This document shows, one piece after another, positions 26,878 to 39,931 of a DNA stretch of 64,000 nt. The stretch covers positions 1,922,001-1,986,000 of the forward strand of contig JARKIF010000009.1 in assembly GCA_029378245.1 (NCBI GenBank), read 5' to 3'. The translations under genes were made by a program, and so were the position numbers. The notes under the pieces were generated by a model. The model made no database searches. It saw only the letters and a list, made by a program, of their open reading frames with translations, and was not told the DNA's origin. The DNA comes from Roridomyces roridus. Lineage: Eukaryota > Basidiomycota > Agaricomycetes > Agaricales > Mycenaceae. Within the stretch, counting starts at the first letter, position 1; each line of letters starts with the position of its first letter.

Positions 26878-28700
26878 ATGGAGGAGCCGCCAACGATACC
26901 AGCACTTTTTGTGCTCCTTCCCTTACTCATCGTGCTCTCTACCCTGCTTTTCATCCTATTCCTCGTTCTCGTATGCGCTATAATATTGCGTCGACGACGG
27001 GGCATCATGCTGCGAGACAGCGATGGGCCGGTCGATATGAGCCGGGAGGAGATCATTGAGAGCGACGGAGCCTTCGAGGGCCTCGAGACCCGCTGGCTCG
27101 AGAGCGTCAGCGAGCCCGTTCGGCAAGCTTATCTGCGTGCACGAGGTGAGCATTTAAACCCCCCGCTCCAAATTGCGTTGTCATTCACCGTCCCCCTCAG
27201 ATTACCAGCTGCAATACCGCCCCAACTCCCTCCCCACCGACATCACGCTCTCCCAGTTCCTGTCCATCCAGGAGAAGGGCGTCTCCGCCTGGTCGTTCGA
27301 GCCTGACTACGAGACTGTCAACTCTCTCATTGTCCATGCGCGCACCGAGATCACATTCCTGCCCGATCCGGCCTCCTCCTCGTCTGTGCAGTCGAACCTG
27401 CCCCTGCCGAAGCTGAACGAGGTCTACTATTGGGAAGTCAAGATGTTTGATCTCCCCGAGTCTACCACCGTAGCTGTGGGTCTGGCGACCAAACCGTACC
27501 CCGCATTCAGACTCCCCGGTCTCAATCGATACTCGGTCGCTTATCATTCCAATGGCGACAAGTCCCACAACTACCCCTTCACAGCCTCCCAGTTTGGTCC
27601 CATACTCAAGGAGGGCGATGTTCTGGGTGTCGGCTACCGGCCTCGCACTGGCACAGTGTTTTACACTCGCAATGGACGGAAGCTCGAGGACGCTTTTGTC
27701 GGTCTCAACCGATACAATTTGTTCCCCACTATTGGCGCAGATGGACCCTGTAGCGTGCATGTCAACCTTGGCCAAGCTGGCTTCGTGTTCATCGAGGCAA
27801 ACGTCAAGAAGTGGGGACTTGCACCCAGTGTTGGAACGCTTGCTCCTCCACCAGCCTACGGGAGCGAGCGCGGGAGCATCCTATTAGATGTCGGTGGCCG
27901 TGTTCGAACAAGAGGTGATGGTACGCCGCACAGCATTCCTGGCGCATTCCTCACCAATGTCGAGACGCTCCTCCCACCGGTCTCGCCGGCCGAAACCGCC
28001 TGAGCAGGTTTCTTCTCCACTACGAACATCGTCGCTGATGGGACCACCGACCACTCCGCCACCGCCAATAACCCCCATTGGAGAGGAGGCGCCGGACCTG
28101 GATGCTCCGGGCCCATCATCTCGGAGGTACATTTCACCTACGGACTCGCCATTCCACGCTCCACCAAACGCCAATTTGCCGAGCGATGCTGGCGAAGATG
28201 AATCGTCCGCTCCATCTTCCCCAGTTTCCTCTTCCCGCTCCCCCTCTCCAGACGCCGCAGGTGCGACAAATCCGTTCAGCACGCCTCGGCGTCACCGTCC
28301 GTCCCTCACTCATTTGGCCGCTTCATTGTCCGACTCAGGCTCGGAAATGACTATCCAGGTACATGGGCCTCCTCCCGAGACGCCAGTGACCCCAAATCCG
28401 CCGACGCCTAACATGCTTGATATCCATTTGCAGGCACTGGCTCCTTCCCACCGGCGCACGTCGAGTAGCGGAAGCCACCACTCGACTCGTGAACCCAACG
28501 ACCGACTACCGTCCGCGGATTCCCTCAGCAGGCGGGACCCGCCGGCTTATTCGCCGCTGGATGCCTTTACCTACCAGGATGGAGTGCACATCGACCTACC
28601 GGCCGAGGTGATCGCGGCTGCTTTAGAAGGGAACGCTATGCCGACGAGTGCTATTGGGGGCAGTGGTTCCGATAGGCGGCAGCGCACACGGAGGCATTGA
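26878..28700 (+). CDS. SSH4: SPRY-domain ubiquitin-ligase adaptor (Ssh4/Ear1 family)
   Basis: Endosomal/vacuolar adaptor that recruits the Rsp5 ubiquitin ligase to membrane cargo. The start ATG at 26878 leads to one transmembrane helix at about residues 8-38 (LPLLIVLSTLLFILFLVLV), followed by RRRRG. Then comes YQLQYRPNSLPTDITLSQ and a SPRY domain (about residues 130-290) with YYWEVKMFDLPESTTVAVGL, YSVAYHSNGDKSHNYPF and GRKLEDAF. The C-terminal half is a Ser/Pro-rich disordered tail. Two PPxY motifs able to bind Rsp5 WW domains are visible: APPPAYGSERG just after SPRY, and RRDPPAYSPLDAF near the end. Two introns. Confidence 0.9.
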
Positions 28701-28799: not shown

Positions 28800-30563
28800 C
28801 TACCAACTCCGCCGTGGTCCGTACAGTTTGTCCCACAACCGCTGCAACTCGTCACACGTCCCGTTGCAATAATGTTCCGGGTCACCCTGGAAGAAATCTA
28901 TCAAGCGCAAACCTTGCGGGCCGCGCACGACATGAGAAGGCTCGAGAGCGTGGTGGGCTACTCCGGCGGCATGAACTTGCTTCACTAGAGTGAACAGTGC
29001 GTCCCTGTGATACTCGTCAGGTTTATCATTGACATGGTTCGGATACATACTTGTCCGTGTCGTCCAAACCCGAGAACGACCACTGGTCTTCGAAAGCATC
29101 CCCACCATCGCCAAGGACGAGAGCGCATTCCTCGCCACGGTATACACCGTAATAACGTGGTGTAAGCTGTAGTCCACTCAGCCGTTCATAACACGCCTTT
29201 TCGGTTTCAAGTGCTTCTTGTGCAAGATCGTCCGAGTCGTAGAATTTAATCTTGACTGGTTCACCCATCAATTTCCCGGACCAGACAGTGGCCCTTTCTC
29301 CAATGGAAAGCATGGTCAACGCTGCCAAAGAAGGCAGAGTCGAGGTGCATGAGCCCGGAGAGCTCGAAGGAATTGAGCCGATTTGTACATGCAGTAGCAC
29401 CTCCTGCAAGTGATTCAAAAACAGTCAATTCAAGGGAGGGGCACGACATACCTCGGGGGGACTGAAAGCAGGATGGGCGTTGCTATTTTTCCGGTTCCCA
29501 GCACCGTCTTTGTCGCGTTTTTCAATGGTCGGTATCCTTCTTAAGAGCTCGGCGGGTGATATCGCTTTTGCCATGGCCTGCACAGAATCGGGCACTTGAA
29601 TTGCATGTAGTGGAGAATCTGGCAACAAGAGGAGGCACAGGAAGAGGCCGATGAGCGGGATGGGTTTGGAGTTTCCCTGCCATATCTGCGACTTCTGAGT
29701 GCTGGGGTGCGTCTGCTGTATAGTTGCGGGTCGACCTTTGGAGACTGCCAGGGCCCAATGACCGTTGGGTAGGTAAACTACACTTTTAGCCAAAAAAAAA
29801 ACATGATAGTCGATTTACAACTCACCCTTTTGGCAGATGGTGATAGTCCATCCGTCGAAAAGTAGGCCAATATTCGGCTCTTTGTTGAGAGCAGAAACAT
29901 GTAAGAAAAGCTGAATTTAATGAGCCGGTGGAACACAGAGGGTGAAATGAGATATACCTTGACCAACATGGATTTGCCATCGTGTTGGCCTTGATAGGTA
30001 GAGTGGTTGCATTGGTGGATTTCCCGTGCATGAGAGATAGATACGAGTGGCATCGTATTATCGGCCGAAAAGGCCCGGAGTGGTTCAGGATCAAAGGGAG
30101 CCAAGATTTGCGGGATGCGGACGACGTTGTAGCCTCCGCGCTGGCTCGGATATTTCGCATGCGCTTGACAAGGCTCATTGTCGCCTGCGGTGATCCACTG
30201 GATAAGAGGAGAGATGACAAAGCAAGTCAGAGCAGAGATGTGGAGGTCAATGTCTCGCTCCGAAGAAACAGGCGTGGATGAATACGAAGCCACGAATACG
30301 TCGATGATGCTGATAATTTCTGCTGGCAAAGCTCGGTTTAAAAACCCCCGCCGTAAAAGTTCGTCTCTGCCCCTTTGCATGATTTCGTCGTAGATTTGGT
30401 CGTCGATGGTCTCGGGGAACGAACAAGTCAAGAAGTCCTCCTCAGGGGGCATTCTTAGAGCAGACCAAGACGCGGTTGCCTGATTGCTGGAATTGGGAAA
30501 GGGCGGCGCGGTTGGCAGTATGAAAGACAGGAGGTCCGAGACCGTTGGATTGTCGCCCCGCAT
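28800..30563 (-). CDS. tandem kinase-like protein, copy 1 (predicted pseudokinase)
   Basis: First of four head-to-tail paralogues. The start ATG at 30563 (MRGDNPTVSDLLSFILPTAP) opens a roughly 210-residue N-terminal domain with DDQIYDEIMQRGRDELLRRG. Later come LSTDGLS-type sequence, NGHWALAVSKGRPAT and a hydrophobic segment IPLIGLFLCLLLLPDSPL. The kinase-like C-terminus has GERATVWSGKLMGEPVKIKF (possible ATP-site Lys), TEKACYERL, then HHALEPSHVV where an active kinase has HxDxxxxN, and IDFFQG where DFG is expected. It ends YGPRRSW. The catalytic Asp and Asn are both replaced, so I predict no phosphotransfer. Five to six introns. Its closest relatives are the next three genes. Confidence 0.78.
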
Positions 30564-30584
30564 GGTCGTAAAGAGACTGCAAAC

Positions 30585-30594
30585 CGGTCACGTG
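30585..30594. promoter_or_regulatory. CGGTCACGTG box upstream of kinase-like copy 1
   Basis: Contains the E-box CACGTG in the context GTCACGTG, the form favoured by Cbf1/bHLH factors. It lies 22-31 bp upstream of the copy 1 start codon. The same 10-mer occurs upstream of copies 3 and 4. Confidence 0.45.
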
Positions 30595-30675
30595 TGCATG
30601 GTCGCCCGCGCTGAATTCCACCAACGAGATAGTATATGTTGTATTATGACTTGAGATAACGAGAGAATATAACTC

Positions 30676-32460
30676 TCAACTTCTCCGTGGCCCATATAGT
30701 TCGTCCCATAACCACCGCAACTCGTAACACGTCCCTTTGCAATGATGTTCCAGATCACTTTGAGCAAAATCTATCAAGCGTAAACCTTGAGGTCCTTGCA
30801 CGACATTGCGGGGCTGGAGAGCGCGGTGTGCTACACCGGCAGCGTGAACTTGTTTCACTAGAGTAAACAGTGCGTCCCTGTGATACTCGTCAGATTCAAT
30901 GGGCATTGTCGAAAAGATACACACTTGTCCGGGTCGTCCAACCCCGACCACTGGTCTTCGAGGGCATTTCCACCATCGCCGAGGACAAGAGCGCACTCCT
31001 CACCACAGTATACACCGTAATAGGGTGGTGTAACTTGCAGTCCACTCAACCGTTCATAACAGGCCTTTTCGGTTTCAAGTGCTGCTTGTGCAAGATCGTC
31101 CGAGTCGTAGAATTTGATTTTGACCGGTTCACCCATGAATTTTCCGGACCAGACAGTGGCCCTTTGTCCAATGGACAGCATAGTCAATGCTTCCAAACGA
31201 GGCAGAGCCGGCGTTGCAGAGGTATCTAGAGAGGAGCTTGGGCCGATTTGTACATGCAGTAGCACCTCCTGCAGGTGATTTAAGAACGGTAGATATCAAG
31301 TAAATGGCCAAGGTGGCATACCTCAGGAATGAAAGCAGGATGAGCGTCGCCAGTTTTCCGGCTCCCAGCACCGTCTTTGTCGCGCTTTTCAAGAGTGGGT
31401 TTTCTTTGCAAAAGTTCGGTGGGTGAGCTTGCTTTTGCCTTGGCCAGAACAGAATCTGGGACTTGAGGTGTCTGTAATGGAGAACTTCCCGGTAGAAGAA
31501 GACAGAGAAAAAGCCCGATGAGTGCGATCGGATTTGGGTTTGATTGCCACATCGGGAAGCCAGGGATGAGCTGTGCGTGAGCAAGATGTCTCTGTGCCAA
31601 AGCCGTTGGTCGTCCCTTGGAGATTGCCATGGCCCAATGGCCATTGATAAGGCGAACTAGTTTTCGTCAGGGGGAAAGTGGTAAAATAGCAATTGCCGAC
31701 GCACTTTTTTGGCAGAGCCTGATCGTCCATCCGTCGAAGAGTACACCAATGTTCGGCTCCTTGTCGACGGCGGAGATATGGAGGAATAGCTGAGTTTAGT
31801 GAGTGGGTGCAAGAAGGAGGTTGGAATGGCATTCACATTTACGAGCATAGCTTTGGCGCCAGACTGTTTATCATATTTGAAATCGTTTTCCTGCTGTAAA
31901 TCTTGGGCATGGGCTATTGATGTCGTTGGCATCTCAATCTCCAGCGCAAAACCTCGGAGTGGGTCTGGATAAGAGTCTGGGGGGTCCGAAAAGGGGACAG
32001 AAACCAGGTTGAAATCTCGCCATGGGTTGGGACATTGCGCATCCACTCCACAAAGTTCGACATCGTTTGCTGTGATCCATTTCAACAACGGACAGAGTAC
32101 CCCGAACGTGAAATTGACAACGAGAGTGTCAATATCTCGTTCGCAATTCACCACGCGCCGAGCATATGATCCCCCAAAGTCGTCGAGGTTCTGGACAATG
32201 TGGGATGGCAATGTCCGGTTCAGAAAATTTCGCCTGGCAAGCTCCTCTGTGCCTCTCCGCATAATTTCGTCGTAGATGCTGTCGTCGTGGGTTTCCAGAA
32301 AAGAGAAGGAGGGAAAGTCGTCTTGGGGAGGTTGTCTGCTGCCTGACCAGCTAGTCGATGACGCGGACATGTCAGTTATGGTCGGGTCCTGAGGCAGGTG
32401 AGGTGCAAATGGGATCACGAATGAGAGGAGATCAGAGACGGTTGAAACGCTGCTCTGCAT
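30676..32460 (-). CDS. tandem kinase-like protein, copy 2 (predicted pseudokinase)
   Basis: Start ATG at 32460 (MQSSVSTVSDLLSFVIPFAP). The N-terminal domain has DDSIYDEIMRRGTEELARRN, FLNRTLPSHIVQNLDDF and LKWITANDVELCG. Then come the strand-rich EPNIGVLFDGW-type block, NGHWAMAISKGRPTALAQ and the hydrophobic segment IALIGLFLCLLLPGSSPL. The kinase-like tail has GQRATVWSGKFMGEPVKIKF, TEKACYERLSGL, HRALQPRNVVQG (catalytic Asp replaced by Ala, Asn kept) and IDFAQSDLEHHC (DFG changed to DFA). It ends ELYGPRRS. Very similar to copy 4, suggesting recent duplication. No CGGTCACGTG box was found in the 256 bp upstream. Confidence 0.8.
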
Positions 32461-32716
32461 AGTGGACGAGCAGGAGAGAGAGATTTACATAGGGGTTGTC
32501 TAGGTCGAGAGAACGAAGGCAGGAGTTTCGAGATGAAGTCCCGTGTCCATGCCGTCTGCCCAGGAGCGAGTTTTTAGTGGCCGTCGGCACATCGTCGCAT
32601 CGTCAGCGCCAGCGCTACCGCATCTTTTTTTGTTTGTTTGGTGGGACATTTCAGGAGGGTCGAAGTAAGGGCATGTATCGTATGCTTGAATTGGGAAGAT
32701 GGAAAGGGCGCTTATT

Positions 32717-34642
32717 TTATACATTGACTGTACGAAGAACTTGCTCCAAACGGCGGAGCTCACTACATGTTCCCTCGCAGGAATGTCCCACATGGCTTTC
32801 TCCGAAGTCGATCAAACGAACACCTTGGGGCCCGCGCACAACATTTGAGGGTGTAATGTCGTTGTGACACACCCCAGCATTATGCACTGCTCTAACCAGA
32901 GTGTAAAATGCCTGCCTGTGAAACTTGTCAGAGACATAGATCATGAGAGAGAGAGAGAGGTACTTCTCGTCATCATCCAACTCTGACCAGTTTGTCAGAC
33001 TTTTACCTCCGTGTTCGACTAGAAGCACACTGTCCACCTGCCCGCGGTAGACTCCAAGGAAACGTGGTGTGAGGCCCAAGGGACTCAGACGTTCGTAGCA
33101 TGCCGCTTCTGAAGCAAGGGATTGCTGGGCATGTTTGTTAAGTTCATATGCCTTTAGAATGACCTCTTTCCCTCGGAGCAGCCCTGACCAGACAGTCGAC
33201 TCCTTGCCTATCAATATAACAGTTGATGCTTCCAAACGAGGGGGAGCTGCAGGCAGTGGAACGGAAATGGGGTAGGATTTGGTGACATTAGAGTTGGGCT
33301 CCTCAAGGGGGGAGGTTGGTGGGGTTGAGACCGAGGACAGACTGTCATCGGTGGTAGCGGAATGCGAGGAGTTTGAAGGTGATATTGTAGGGCCGGTGTG
33401 GACATGTAATATAACCTCCTTGAAGTGATTTAAGAACAGTAAATTACAGGAAGAAGCTAAGCATACCATCGGTATATCCAAATCGATCGTTTGAGTTGAT
33501 GAGTCAATTTGTTTCTGGTTTTTGAGCGCAGCTGATCGTGTTACACGCTTCCTGATTCCATTGGAATCATGGATTTCTATGGAGTCGTTGAAAGGGCTCG
33601 ATCTGGCCTTCACCAGCAGTGATTCTGGAATCGTGGGTGCCGCAAGAGGTGATTCCAATAGCAAGAGGCAAAGGAATAATCCGATCAGTGGTATTGGATC
33701 GGTATTTTGTTGCCAATGATCGATTTGCTGAGGGGTGACTCGGACGTTGTCAGGATCCGGAAGGGTCTGATCCACAGTTGTCGGTCGGCCTTTGGAAATG
33801 ACCAAAGCCCATTGACCATTTGAAAGGCAAACTATCTTCTTTGTTAGTGAAAAACCTGGTGGGTCCATTCATAACGCACTTTTTTGACATAGAACAACCG
33901 TCCATCCGTCGAAAAAGACACCAACGTGGGGCTCCTTGTCAAGGGCGGATATGTGCAGGAAGATCTGAGTTGAATGAGCCACCTCAAAAAACGGTGAAAT
34001 GAGGCATACCTTTACAATCATCCCCCTTCCCCCAGACTCAGCTTCTGGCTGGAGATGACGGCGAGTGAAATGATGAGGCGAATGTAGTTCTTCAGCATGC
34101 ACCAGCGCGACCAATGGCAGCTTGTCTTCGATAGCAGAACCGCCAAGAATGGTGGGGTCTGCTGAAGGACGTGCCTCTTCCTGCACTGGAACCCTAACAA
34201 AATGGAAATCGCCTTGCTGCGAGAACCGAAGTCCAGGGTGCTGTGCCAGTGTGGTGTATTGCCCGTCCGTGAGCCATTCCATCATGGGTAGAAGGACCAG
34301 AGTATTCAGGTCGTTCATCATAGCGTCAATATCCGTCTCGGCAGAAACGATCTTCCTCGAGTGAGAGCGAATGTATTGGTTGAGAGTACTGAGGATGGAA
34401 GGCGGTAGTTGGGCATCTAGCCGATTGAGCTGGGCCAGTTTTTGTCTTCCTTGGCGCATAATCTCTTCGAATATCTCGCCGTCGTGGACCTCCGGCAATG
34501 AATATGATATCGATTCATCCCGTGGAGGGAATCTCAGAGCAGACCAGGCGGCGGTAGTCTGACTGGTGGACCGGGGAAAATTCGGTGACATGGGGAGGTT
34601 GAAGGCTATGAGGTCGGAGACCGTGGAAATGTTGTTCTGCAT
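32717..34642 (-). CDS. tandem kinase-like protein, copy 3 (catalytic residues intact)
   Basis: About 560 residues. The start ATG at 34642 (MQNNISTVSDLIAFNLPMSP) opens the N-terminal domain (about residues 1-210). FLHISALDKEPHVGVFFDGW is next, then NGQWALVISKGRPTT. The hydrophobic segment IPLIGLFLCLLLLESPL falls at about residues 286-302. A longer Ser/Thr/Pro linker than in the other copies separates it from the kinase-like domain. That domain has STVWSGLLRGKEVILKAYEL (ATP-site Lys), SEAACYERLSPLG, HNDITPSNVVRGPQG (HxDxxxxN intact) and RLIDFGESHVGHSC (DFG intact). It is the only copy of the four that retains the full catalytic set, so it is the best candidate for the ancestral, active form. 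Substrate unknown. Confidence 0.82.
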
Positions 34643-34725
34643 AGCTGGAGGTTGTGTCAAGGATGAGGAGAGACAGGAGCAAGACGGAGTAAGTAGTAGG
34701 GAGAACTGAAAGTCTGAAACCGGTC

Positions 34726-34735
34726 CGGTCACGTG
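34726..34735. promoter_or_regulatory. CGGTCACGTG box upstream of kinase-like copy 3
   Basis: The same 10-mer as upstream of copies 1 and 4, here 84-93 bp upstream of the copy 3 start codon, in the 139-bp gap between copies 3 and 4. Confidence 0.45.
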
Positions 34736-34781
34736 CCATTGTAGCCGCCACCCAGGAATACATGTTAGGAGAGTATAACTA

Positions 34782-36580
34782 TCAACTCCGCCGCGGTCCA
34801 TACAGTTCGGCCCACAGCCGCTGCAACTCGTCACACGTCCCGTCGCAATAATGTTCCAGAACACTCTGAGCAAAATCTATCAAGCGTAAACTTCCTTGCG
34901 GGCCGCGCACAACATGGTGCGGCTCGAGAGTCAAGTGTCTTACTCCGGCTGCATGGACTTGTTTCACTAGAGTGTACAGTGCGTCCCTGCGAATTGGTAC
35001 TCGTTAGATTCATCCTTGAAATTGTCACAGAGATACATACTTGTCCGTGTCGTCCAACTCCGAGAACGACCACTCTTCGAGAGCTTTTCCACCATCGCCA
35101 AGGACAAGAGCGCATTCTTCACCACGATATACACCGTAATACGGTGGTGTAAGTCCGAGTGCACTTAGTCGTTCATAACACGCCTTTTCAGTTGCCAGTG
35201 CTTCCTGTGCACCATCGTCCAAGTCGTAAAATTTAATCTTGACTGGTTCACCCATGAATTTCCCCGACCAGACAGTGGCCCTGCATCCAATGGACAGCAT
35301 AGTCAATGCTTCCAAACGAGGCAGAGCCGAGGTTGCAGAGTCAGAGGAACTCGAAAGAATGGGGCCACGTTGTATATGCAATACAACGTCCTCCAGGTGA
35401 TATAAGAATGATAAATAGAAGGTAGGGCACGACATACCTCGGGAATGAAAGCAAGATGGCCATGTTTCTGGCTTCCAGTACCGTCTTTGTCACGCTTTTC
35501 AATAGTGGGTTTTCTTTGCAAAAGATCGGTGGGTGAAATTGCTTTTGCTTTGGCCAGAACAGAATCCGGCACTTGAGGTGTCCGTAGTGGAGAACCCGGT
35601 AGAAGGAGACAAAGAAAAAGCCCAATGAGTGGGATCGGATTTGAGTGTGCTTTCCACATCGGGAATTCGGGGCTGCGCTGCGCGTGAGGAGGATGTGTCT
35701 GTTCCAGAGTCGTTGGTCGTCCCTCGGAGATCGCCATGGCCCAATGACCATTGATAAGACGAACTACTTTTCGTCAGGGAAAAAGAGTGATGGATAGCAA
35801 TTGCCGACTCACTTTTTTGGCAGATCCTGATCGTCCAACCGTCGAAGAGTACACCAATGTTCGGCTCCTTGTTAACGGCGGAGATATGGAGGAATAGCTG
35901 AGTTCAGTGAGAGAGTGCAAGAGGAAGGTTGGAATGACATGTACATTTGCCAGCATAGCTCTGCCGCCAGACTGTCTCTGATACGTGAAATCGTTTTCCT
36001 GGTGTAAATCTTTTGCATTGGATATCGGTACCGTTGGCATCTCACTCTCCAGCGCAAAACTTCGCAGTGGTTCTGGATGAGATTCCGGCCTGCCCGGCTT
36101 CCTTGAAACGGGGACAGCAACCATGTTGATACCTTGCCACGGGTCAGCCCAATGTCGGACCTGAACTCCACACAGTTCGACCTCGTCTGCTGTAATCCAT
36201 TTCAACAGCGGATAGAGTATCGCGCACGTTAAATGGCCGATGATAGCGTCGAGGTCTCGTTCGTTGTCCACATAATGCGACACATACGCCTCGACAAAGT
36301 TGTCGATCCCATACACCAAGTTGGATGGCAATGGTCGATTCAGAAAATTTCGCCTGGCAAGCTCCTCGGTGCCTCTCCGCATGATTTCTTCGTAGATGCT
36401 GTCGTCGCGCGCTTCCAGAAAAGAGAAGGAGAGAAAGTCATCTTGTGGAGGTCGTCTGCTGCCCGACCAACTGGTAGATGACAACCACGTCCTGCCCGTC
36501 TTGGTCGAGTCGGGAAAGAGAGGTGCCAATGGGATTACGAATGCCAGAAGATCAGAGAGGGTCGAAACGCCACCCTGCAT
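34782..36580 (-). CDS. tandem kinase-like protein, copy 4 (predicted pseudokinase)
   Basis: Start ATG at 36580 (MQGGVSTLSDLLAFVIPLAP); the frame is open further upstream but this start aligns with copies 2 and 3. N-terminal domain with DDSIYEEIMRRGTEELARRN. It is spliced to LFLHISAVNKEPNIGVLFDG, then VRLINGHWAMAISEGRPTT and IPLIGLFLCLLLPGSPL. Kinase-like tail: CRATVWSGKFMGEPVKIKFY, TEKACYERLSAL, then HLTLEPHHVVRG (Asp to Thr, Asn to His) and IDFAQSVLEHYC. It ends ELYGPRRS. Catalysis is not expected. It is head-to-head with the homeodomain gene, 110 bp apart, across a CGGTCACGTG box. Confidence 0.8.
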
Positions 36581-36644: not shown

Positions 36645-36654
36645 CGGTCACGTG
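36645..36654. promoter_or_regulatory. CGGTCACGTG box between kinase-like copy 4 and the homeodomain gene
   Basis: Third instance of the 10-mer, 65 bp upstream of the copy 4 start and 37 bp upstream of the divergent homeodomain start, so it could serve either gene. Confidence 0.45.
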
Positions 36655-36690: not shown

Positions 36691-37406
36691 ATGCCGCCTG
36701 CCCCGCTACGTCCATCCACCGCCGCCAATAGAGCCCCGACGACTGCCAAACATACCCAACTCAGCAAAGAACAGAAATCCAGCCTAGAGCAACTATACCG
36801 CCACACTGCCAAACCTTCGCGTCACGATCGCGAGACACTCGCTGGAGAGCTCAATCTGTGCGTTATCGAGCCTTCCGTCTCTGCCATTCACTTAGACCTC
36901 GCCCCAAAAGATCAACGCAGGTCGTTACGAGCTGGTTTAAGAGCAGACAGAAGACCAAGACTACCTCCAGAACTAGACCACCTAGCTCCCGTCGTCCATC
37001 GCTCGACGTGGTCGCGTCTCGCTCGGAACTACCTCTCCCGCCCAGGACTCCTCGCCACCACAAATTCAACCCTCACGCGCCGCTTTGGGCACACATGCTG
37101 TCCTCTCCGCCCGGCCCTGCCTCCAGCCCCCATGGTCATTCCACCAGTTATGGCAAGGGCAGTCTCGAATGGGCGTGCGCGCGTCGCAGACGAGTTCCAG
37201 GAAACGAGGATGAGGAGAATCTTCCGGGGCTGTTGGAGGATGTTGCTGGAGACACGGACGTGGATTCAGAAATTCAGACCCCTCCAAGCTCGAATTCGTC
37301 CCAGCGCTCGCGGAGTGCGGTCGGTGACAAGTCTGCCATGCTCCAGGAGCCAGACGAAGAGATGATGAAGGCCGCACTCGCGTTGTGTGGGCTCATGCAT
37401 GGATGA
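36691..37406 (+). CDS. homeodomain protein
   Basis: Start ATG at 36691 (MPPAPLRPSTAANRAPT). The homeodomain begins near residue 22: QLSKEQKSSLEQLYRHTAKP, then SRHDRETLAGELNL. A 54-nt intron joins it to STQVVTSWFKSRQKTKTTSR. The recognition helix has WFKSRQ in place of the usual WFQNRR but keeps W, F and R at the invariant positions. The rest (about 140 residues) is a disordered Ser/Pro/Arg region and an acidic end (PDEEMMKAALALCGLMHG). Likely a nuclear DNA-binding regulator. It is a lone homeodomain gene, without the HD1/HD2 pair of a mating-type locus. Confidence 0.82.
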
Positions 37407-38016: not shown

Positions 38017-39931
38017 CTAGGGCTCCAACCTCTTCGGGTCGCGCGGGAACATGGACGCACGACGGATATTGTTCAGCTTGAGGAAAAGCATGAGCACACG
38101 TTCCAAGCCGATTCCCCCTCCTCCGTGCGGAGCACAGCCCATACGGAAGGCATCGAGGTAGCCTTTCATCGAGTCGGGGTCAACACCTTTGCCACGCATC
38201 TTCTCCGCGAGCACGTTCGGGTCGTGGATACGCTGGGCACCGGAGAGGATCTCTTCGCCACGCATGAAAAAGTCGTACGAGTTGGACACGGTCTGCACAA
38301 AAGAAGATTGGCTCATGCTATCAAACGCAGGGAGATGACTTACCGGGTCCTCGGCGTCGGGCATGGTGTAGAAGGGACGGAGCTCTATGGGGAATTTGTC
38401 GATGATGAAATAGTCGGTGTCGTATTTGGCTTTGACGAGGCGACCGAGTCTCTTCTCGTTCTCAGTGCTGCGATCCTTGAGCTTCGGAAGAAATGTCAAG
38501 ACGGGTGGAAACATACTTGATATCGTCCAAGTCCTCCCGCGGCACACCATCCTCAACGAGCATGTCAATCGCCTGACGGAACGTGAGCTTCAATGTTCCC
38601 TCGGGACCCTCCCTCCACTTGAATTCATCAGCGGGGAACTGCAAGCCAACGGTTGCGATCTCGGCGCTGTAATTAGCCTTGAGCCCACGGAAAATGCTCA
38701 GGAAAAGACCATCGAGAAGTTCCATGACTTCGTGGTAATGCTCCTCGATCGTCATCTCCAGATCAAGGCCCATGAATTCGGTCAGATGCCGGTGGGTGTT
38801 GGAGTCCTCCGCGCGGAAAACGGGACCGATTTCGTAGACCCTCTCAAAGTCCGCTGCAATGGCCATCTGCTTGGCGAGTTGCGGCGATTGCGCAAGGAAG
38901 GCACTCCCTTTGCTTGAATTAATGGGTGTACGACATGTCTGTGCGTAAGCCTACCTTTGAAATAACCAACTTTGAACACGGATGCTCCCGACTCTGTTGC
39001 AGCACCCTGAAGTTTGGGGCTGTGGATTTCGATGAAGCCGTTGCTACTCAGGTGCTGCCGGAACAGGTCGCCGATTACGGATTGCAGCTTGAAGACGGCT
39101 TGATTTGTTTGTGTCCGGAGATCAACGACGCGGTTATTGAGCCGTGTGTCGAGCAAGACACGGCTGAATTGCCTGTCGTCGTCGGCTGCCTCCTCGGTGT
39201 CGGGTCGAGAAGCGTCGTCCAACGAGAAAGGAAGCCGTCCATCAATGCCAGAAATTAGATGAATCTGGATTCGAGTTATTGGGCCAGTTCCTGTCGTAGA
39301 AGATTGAACGCACCTGTGCAACCTGGACCTCGACATCCTGAACAGTCGCACTCTTAATCGGCTCGGGAGACCTTTTGACGAGACCCTGAACGAGCACGAT
39401 ACTTTCGTCGGCCAGGGACCCAGCCCATTTGATCATTTGCTTGGATATTTTCTCGGGAGTCGCGATAACGAGTGCCTGTACCGAGTCACCGCGTTGACGG
39501 AGGTTCAAGAAGACCATTTTGTTGCCCTGAAGTCGGGAAGTTTGGACGCGTGCTCGGAACAGGACTGTCTGTCCATCGCGGGTCGAGAGGGAGAAAATTT
39601 GGATACGGGGCAGCCGGGGACGCGTCTGGGACTGATGCAAAGGCAGAGCGCCGTAGAACTCGGTTGCAAAATCCTGCATCGATCAGTACAGTGTTGCTCG
39701 GGTGAACCAACTCGGGACGGACAACTTCAGTGGCAGCTTGTTTGGCAGCTTGTTCTTCTTGCCGGGCAGCTTTCTCTGCCGCTTTCTTCTGTTTCTCGAG
39801 CTCCTTGGCGCGCTTTTTCAGCTCACTTTTGGATGGGCCAGTAGATTCTTCGGTGGGAGGGACTCTGGGAAACGTTGAGCTGTGGGTGGAAAGATTAGAT
39901 GGAGGACGTACTGCTCCTGAGGGTCAGCCAT
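38017..39931 (-). CDS. DPS1: aspartyl-tRNA synthetase, cytoplasmic
   Basis: Class IIb synthetase charging tRNA-Asp. The start ATG at 39931 (MADPQEH) is spliced to a Lys/Ala/Glu-rich helix, then to the OB-fold anticodon-binding domain ([38 protein letters not shown]). The catalytic core shows [13 protein letters not shown] (motif 1 region), [36 protein letters not shown] (motif 2) and [14 protein letters not shown] (motif 3), ending [10 protein letters not shown]. One acceptor near 38920 must be CAAAG to keep KGSAFLAQ in frame. It is divergent from the aspartate aminotransferase, 167 bp apart. Confidence 0.96.

Follow-up and report, generated by a model that had tools for sequence, protein, structure and literature searches.

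Why would a fungus keep, side by side, one kinase-like gene with its catalytic residues complete and three relatives from which the catalytic aspartate is gone? The question is raised by positions 28800-36580 of a 64,000-nucleotide stretch of the Roridomyces roridus (Mycenaceae, Agaricales) genome (contig JARKIF010000009.1, positions 1,922,001 to 1,986,000; hereafter the window), in which four paralogues, designated c1 to c4, follow one another in tandem, head to tail, along the minus strand. The answer we favor, and to which we give about even chances of being right, is that c3 would be an active small kinase and that c1, c2 and c4 would have been maintained as pseudokinases that serve as non-catalytic partners or competitors, as suggested by the nucleotide sequence and the comparisons derived from it.

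Splice models bore out the tandem, same-strand arrangement proposed in the initial annotation of this DNA: in every copy, five exons are separated by four introns of 45-54 nucleotides (nt), all with GT-AG ends and at matching positions in the four genes. On the minus strand, c1 (28800-30563; 524 amino acids) has exons at 30563-29958, 29910-29826, 29777-29452, 29403-29051 and 29004-28800; c2 (30676-32460; 529 amino acids) at 32460-31837, 31789-31705, 31656-31322, 31268-30925 and 30877-30676; c3 (32717-34642; 578 amino acids) at 34642-34010, 33964-33880, 33831-33467, 33418-32964 and 32915-32717; and c4 (34782-36580; 533 amino acids) at 36580-35945, 35897-35813, 35763-35438, 35390-35041 and 34986-34782. 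The c4 model is identical, letter for letter, to the deposited protein FB45DRAFT_917246, and that of c1 agrees with FB45DRAFT_1058921 through residue 517, after which the ends differ (9 versus 7 residues). Our searches did not recover c3, the sole copy with a full catalytic set, from the deposited R. roridus proteins; each of its four introns has a length divisible by three (45, 48, 48 and 48 nt), a feature that may have led gene prediction astray. A start with M-Q, described earlier as common to the family, is found in three copies, but c1 opens with M-R. The R. roridus assembly (90.8 Mb, 501 contigs) yielded no further copy of the array and no second allele.

We compared the catalytic residues of the four kinase parts in a motif table, and observed that the HxD Asp, the following Asn and DFG are kept together in c3 only, which reads HNDITPSN and IDFG (Lys450, Glu465, HND 530-532, Asn537 and DFG 549-551, from motif alignment and profile matches). 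The corresponding sequences are HHALEPSH and IDFF in c1, HRALQPRN and IDFA in c2, and HLTLEPHH and IDFA in c4, just as first quoted. The HxD Asp is thus gone in three copies (Ala in c1 and c2, Thr in c4) and the Asn in two (His, Asn and His, respectively), while the Asp of DFG is lost in none, and the beta-3 (ATP-site) Lys and the helix-C Glu are present in all four, in agreement with the retention described previously. Kinase-domain homology, together with the loss of one or more catalytic residues, marks c1, c2 and c4 as predicted pseudokinases. The initial annotation had named an exon structure restoring HxD as one result that would overturn its view; in c1, c2 and c4, the other two frames of the final exon showed no HxD, so that simple alternative splicing would restore none in these copies. 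The same pattern of loss and retention occurs in HER3 and in the JH2 domain of the JAK kinases, pseudokinases that keep the Lys and the DFG Asp without the HxD Asp; for these, homology to the array is shown for the kinase domain only. In amino-acid identity, the kinase parts of c1, c2 and c4 are 81-84% alike, and each is 50-54% identical to that of c3.

Retention of the Lys, the helix-C Glu and the DFG Asp in all four copies, together with the low substitution ratios described below, would also suit copies that are not dead but transfer another group, or hydrolyze ATP, through these residues, and the kinase folds SelO and SidJ, which carry out other chemistry, offer a precedent. However, the Asp has given way to Ala in c1 and c2 and to Thr in c4, and His, Asn and His, respectively, stand where the Asn would be; with no common new residue, the pattern fits loss better, and we regard such alternative chemistry as quite unlikely.

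What kind of kinase c3 might be was examined by profile comparison. c3 matched the Pfam APH profile with 25.7 bits, above the cut-off of 23.2 (expectation value, E, 1.2e-5), and the Pkinase profile with 22.3 bits, below the cut-off of 31.7. In NCBIfam, for which the c3 query was the window frame with two introns read through, the best match was to the kinase part of LanL, the class IV lanthionine synthetase (E 1.3e-11; profile positions 232-347 of 851), and its 43.6 bits, which come from the kinase part only, fall far below the LanL equivalog cut-off of 650 bits. Bud32 profiles were matched next, the best (TIGR03724) at E 5.9e-7 with 29.2 bits, far below the equivalog cut-off of 125 for Bud32 proper, the KEOPS kinase, in an alignment that reaches within two residues of the protein end. 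Weak LanL matches were also seen in the dead copies c4 (E 7.4e-4) and c1 (E 0.037), and a relative elsewhere in the genome matched Kdo (4.1e-8) and APH (2.6e-6). By its APH match, c3 is a member of the broad group of short APH/Kdo (WaaP)/Bud32-like kinases, which, with the kinase part of LanL, are among the closest known systems. The array differs from LanL and Bud32 in its long N-terminal part of another type and in the lack of the HxD Asp from three of its four copies.

The genome contains 21 places with a catalytic loop of this kind, four of them in the array, and we read 11 of the other 17. These stand-alone kinases (L009, L010, L011 and others) carry the same H-x-D...N and DF-x, followed by the same H-x-C...C-x-E-L, as the array. 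Of the 11, 10 retain the HxD Asp (one has HGN) and 10 retain the Asn (another has His), and the dead state in the array is therefore probably derived. The Gly of DFG is not diagnostic, since related genome kinases with DFE or DFD retain HxD. The kinase C-terminus, first described as truncated, is better called short, because the same short end after DFG is common to the genome relatives and to the Bud32-like profiles. Two of these places drew separate attention: at L009 (C469:1494500-1504000) three related kinase exons stand in a row, one with His in place of the catalytic-loop Asn and with HxD kept, and at L017 (C477:46500-53500) a related kinase-like exon has HGN for HxD and is possibly a further pseudokinase.

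We used pairwise Nei-Gojobori estimates among the four paralogues to compare nonsynonymous with synonymous change (dN/dS). In the kinase part, the ratios were 0.19 [0.11-0.33] for c1-c2, 0.27 [0.17-0.49] for c1-c4 and 0.24 [0.13-0.43] for c2-c4, and in a neutral simulation of this part at comparable divergence a mean of 5.4 stops arose, with zero stops in 4 of 1000 runs. From the low ratios and the absence of stops, the dead kinase domains look maintained by selection. The N-terminus of the c2-c4 pair gave a ratio of 0.58 [0.41-0.87], and in this pair 101 nonsynonymous and 47 synonymous changes were counted in the N-terminus, as against 39 and 40, respectively, in the kinase part (p 0.0065). 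A sliding-window scan of c2-c4 gave nothing that we read as positive selection: the one linker segment with a ratio of 3.2 has only 19 codons and three changes, and all other segments lie below 1.

These same figures bear on whether the array is simply a lineage-restricted kinase duplication in slow decay, with the dead copies as remnants without a role. The relaxed change in the c2-c4 N-terminus would suit such decay, as would the differing residues that replaced the lost Asp and Asn and the finding of the family in one species only, by searches of weak reach outside that species. Yet reading frames and splice sites are intact in all four models, the kinase-part ratios stay between 0.19 and 0.27, and stops are expected under neutrality; we consider slow decay unlikely.

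The history of the loss could be followed through synonymous identity, that is, agreement counted only at codons for the same amino acid. Between c1 and c2 this identity rises from 61/137 in the N-terminal half to 125/178 in the C-terminal half (Fisher 5.9e-6), and between c1 and c4 from 65/144 to 131/175 (Fisher 8.1e-8). The control pair c2-c4 is flat (148/188 and 131/177; p 0.32), and none of the three pairs with c3 changes between halves (p 0.78, 1 and 1). The best break falls after c3 residue 326-327, none of 2000 permutations being as good for either pair; a weaker excess, matched in 35 of 2000, links c1 and c3 over their first 35 residues. c1 is a mosaic, the C-terminal half of which matches the c2/c4 lineage. 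We infer that the dead half passed from the c2/c4 lineage to c1, and not in the reverse direction. Since c1 carries a c2/c4-like C-terminal half, one loss event suffices for three dead copies, and most simply the HxD Asp was lost once, before the split of c2 from c4, and reached c1 by gene conversion. The earlier proposal of catalytic loss after duplication accordingly stands as to the loss in three copies, with three losses most simply reduced to one.

The orphan N-terminal domain is encoded by exon 1 on the minus strand (29958-30563 in c1, 31837-32460 in c2, 34010-34642 in c3 and 35945-36580 in c4). As anticipated by the initial annotation, this domain was not recognized: residues 1-211 of c3 and the corresponding parts of the other copies gave no Pfam match in any of the four, and none in the Protein Data Bank, up to E 10. 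A genome search with exon 1 of c3 or c4 returned exactly the four array copies at E up to 1. The domain, having no known match, may be a new fold. No protein from outside R. roridus was returned, in searches of weak reach (about 8000 candidates scored, and one search missed c4 itself) that leave absence elsewhere unshown, and a search of a phage collection, which carries little information, likewise gave no match. The FDGW block, which in c3 lies with the 11-residue hydrophobic sequence LIGLFLCLLLL in exons 2-3 (33467-33964, minus strand), preceding the linker and short kinase domain of exons 4-5 (32717-33418), matched the four copies and, weakly, one place on each of contigs C124 and C273 (E 0.056 and 0.067). 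We took the latter as chance matches and not as a distant copy; by eye, the C124 sequence, the one of the two that was read, is of the glycoside hydrolase 3 type.

FunK1 (Pkinase_fungal, PF17667; PMC3203195) is also a fungal, expanded family with an N-terminal region followed by a kinase, and it has 101 exon-level matches in the R. roridus genome. PF17667 is matched with 223 bits by a FunK1 frame from the same genome, but by none of the four spliced array copies up to E 10. By eye, the FDGW block with the hydrophobic helix behind it resembles the FunK1 N-terminus. A FunK1-like or nuclease-like N-terminus was tried by profile comparison of the four copies with five FunK1 pieces, which gave a probability of 0.1%; both profiles were shallow (effective number of sequences, Neff, below 2), and the assignment is unsupported rather than excluded.

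Structure prediction, also recommended initially, was run, but the models were poor, with mean predicted local distance difference test (pLDDT) values of 36 and 49. The model of mean pLDDT 36 has three helices near the N-terminus, and these, along with the adjoining active and dead paralogues and the converted C-terminal half beside a faster N-terminus, recall a cell-death or self/non-self pair like RIPK3/MLKL, in which c3 would switch c1, c2 and c4 and their helical N-termini would act. MLKL-like death effectors are marked by an N-terminal four-helix (HeLo/HELL/4HB) domain. The array N-terminus has no Pfam match of any kind up to E 10, its helices come from a low-confidence model, and no nucleotide-binding leucine-rich repeat (NLR) domain was found among ten nearby frames scanned. 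Such a pair seems to us very improbable.

The initial annotation had called the four proteins transmembrane. The hydrophobic stretch, nearly the same in all four copies, gives borderline Kyte-Doolittle 19-residue maxima of 1.86 in c1, 1.87 in c2 and 2.13 in c3, and these values and its conservation could be cited for a membrane-anchored kinase with decoys, the N-terminal domain serving as receptor. Yet the stretch is only 10-12 residues long, is flanked by Pro and polar residues and reaches only 1.55 in c4, and on an insertion scale the best windows anywhere were positive in all four copies (+1.26 to +3.51); in c1 the best of these lies outside the stretch. A membrane span is possible but unlikely, a soluble location appears likelier than a membrane one, and we hold the anchored receptor with decoys to be very unlikely.

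We return to the reading of one active kinase with maintained pseudokinases. An ancestral gene would have joined the orphan N-terminal domain to a short Bud32/Kdo-like kinase and then been duplicated in tandem. c3, having kept every catalytic residue, is probably an active ATP-dependent phosphotransferase. c1, c2 and c4 probably bind nucleotide without phosphate transfer, as is suggested by their ATP-site Lys, helix-C Glu and DFG Asp, and may have a non-catalytic role toward c3 or the ligand of c3, as partners, regulators or competitors, with the faster-changing N-terminal domain setting what each copy binds. Several points weigh against this reading. None of c1, c2 and c4 gave a Pfam match below E 0.09, and, the structure models being poor, their fold is assigned from sequence similarity. 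No deposited equal of c2 or c3 was returned by protein searches, and both models are unconfirmed. In most comparisons with c3, dS is saturated, precluding an estimate of selection on c3; the c2-c4 N-terminal ratio also fits simple relaxation; and paralogue ratios are rough, given the small numbers and the joint depression of dN and dS by gene conversion. A bolder proposal, for which we see only a slender chance, is a species-specific kinase-pseudokinase recognition locus with a shared N-terminal recognition domain, a switch for self/non-self or stress signalling in which gene conversion would homogenize the pseudokinase module while the N-terminal module diverges.

With regard to the surroundings of the array, 8 of the 10 nearby frames scanned matched a Pfam family; these include a SPRY domain on one flank (27158-28000) and a class II tRNA synthetase on the other (38020-38589); the frame adjoining c4 (36732-37403) had none. 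The sequence GGTCACGTG occurs on the plus strand at 30586-30594, 34727-34735 and 36646-36654, 23 to 85 base pairs (bp) before the start codons of c1, c3 and c4, respectively; these are its only three occurrences in the window, none precedes c2, and the genome total is 456. Three occurrences were reached in 2 of 100 shuffles, and common descent explains these sites no less well than function. Between c2 and c3, a segment of about 61 bp (32625-32685) recurs five times elsewhere in the genome, with 84-90% identity, and is perhaps a short dispersed repeat. Also, the contig pairs C1/C190, C11/C112 and C156/C442 gave equal scores, suggesting that haplotypes are partly separate in this assembly.

In the open-licence literature, represented mostly by titles and abstract openings, no account of a comparable fungal array was found (other sources are PMC8893723 and PMC12881547). 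The arrangement is unusual in that duplicated kinases turned pseudokinases, a known kind of change, are combined with an orphan domain found, within the reach of our searches, in a single species. Tandem pseudokinases that look maintained, standing beside a putatively active paralogue, would allow the catalytic and non-catalytic roles of one fold to be compared in a natural setting, and the dead module has apparently moved between genes by conversion, so that catalytic loss would have spread as a unit.

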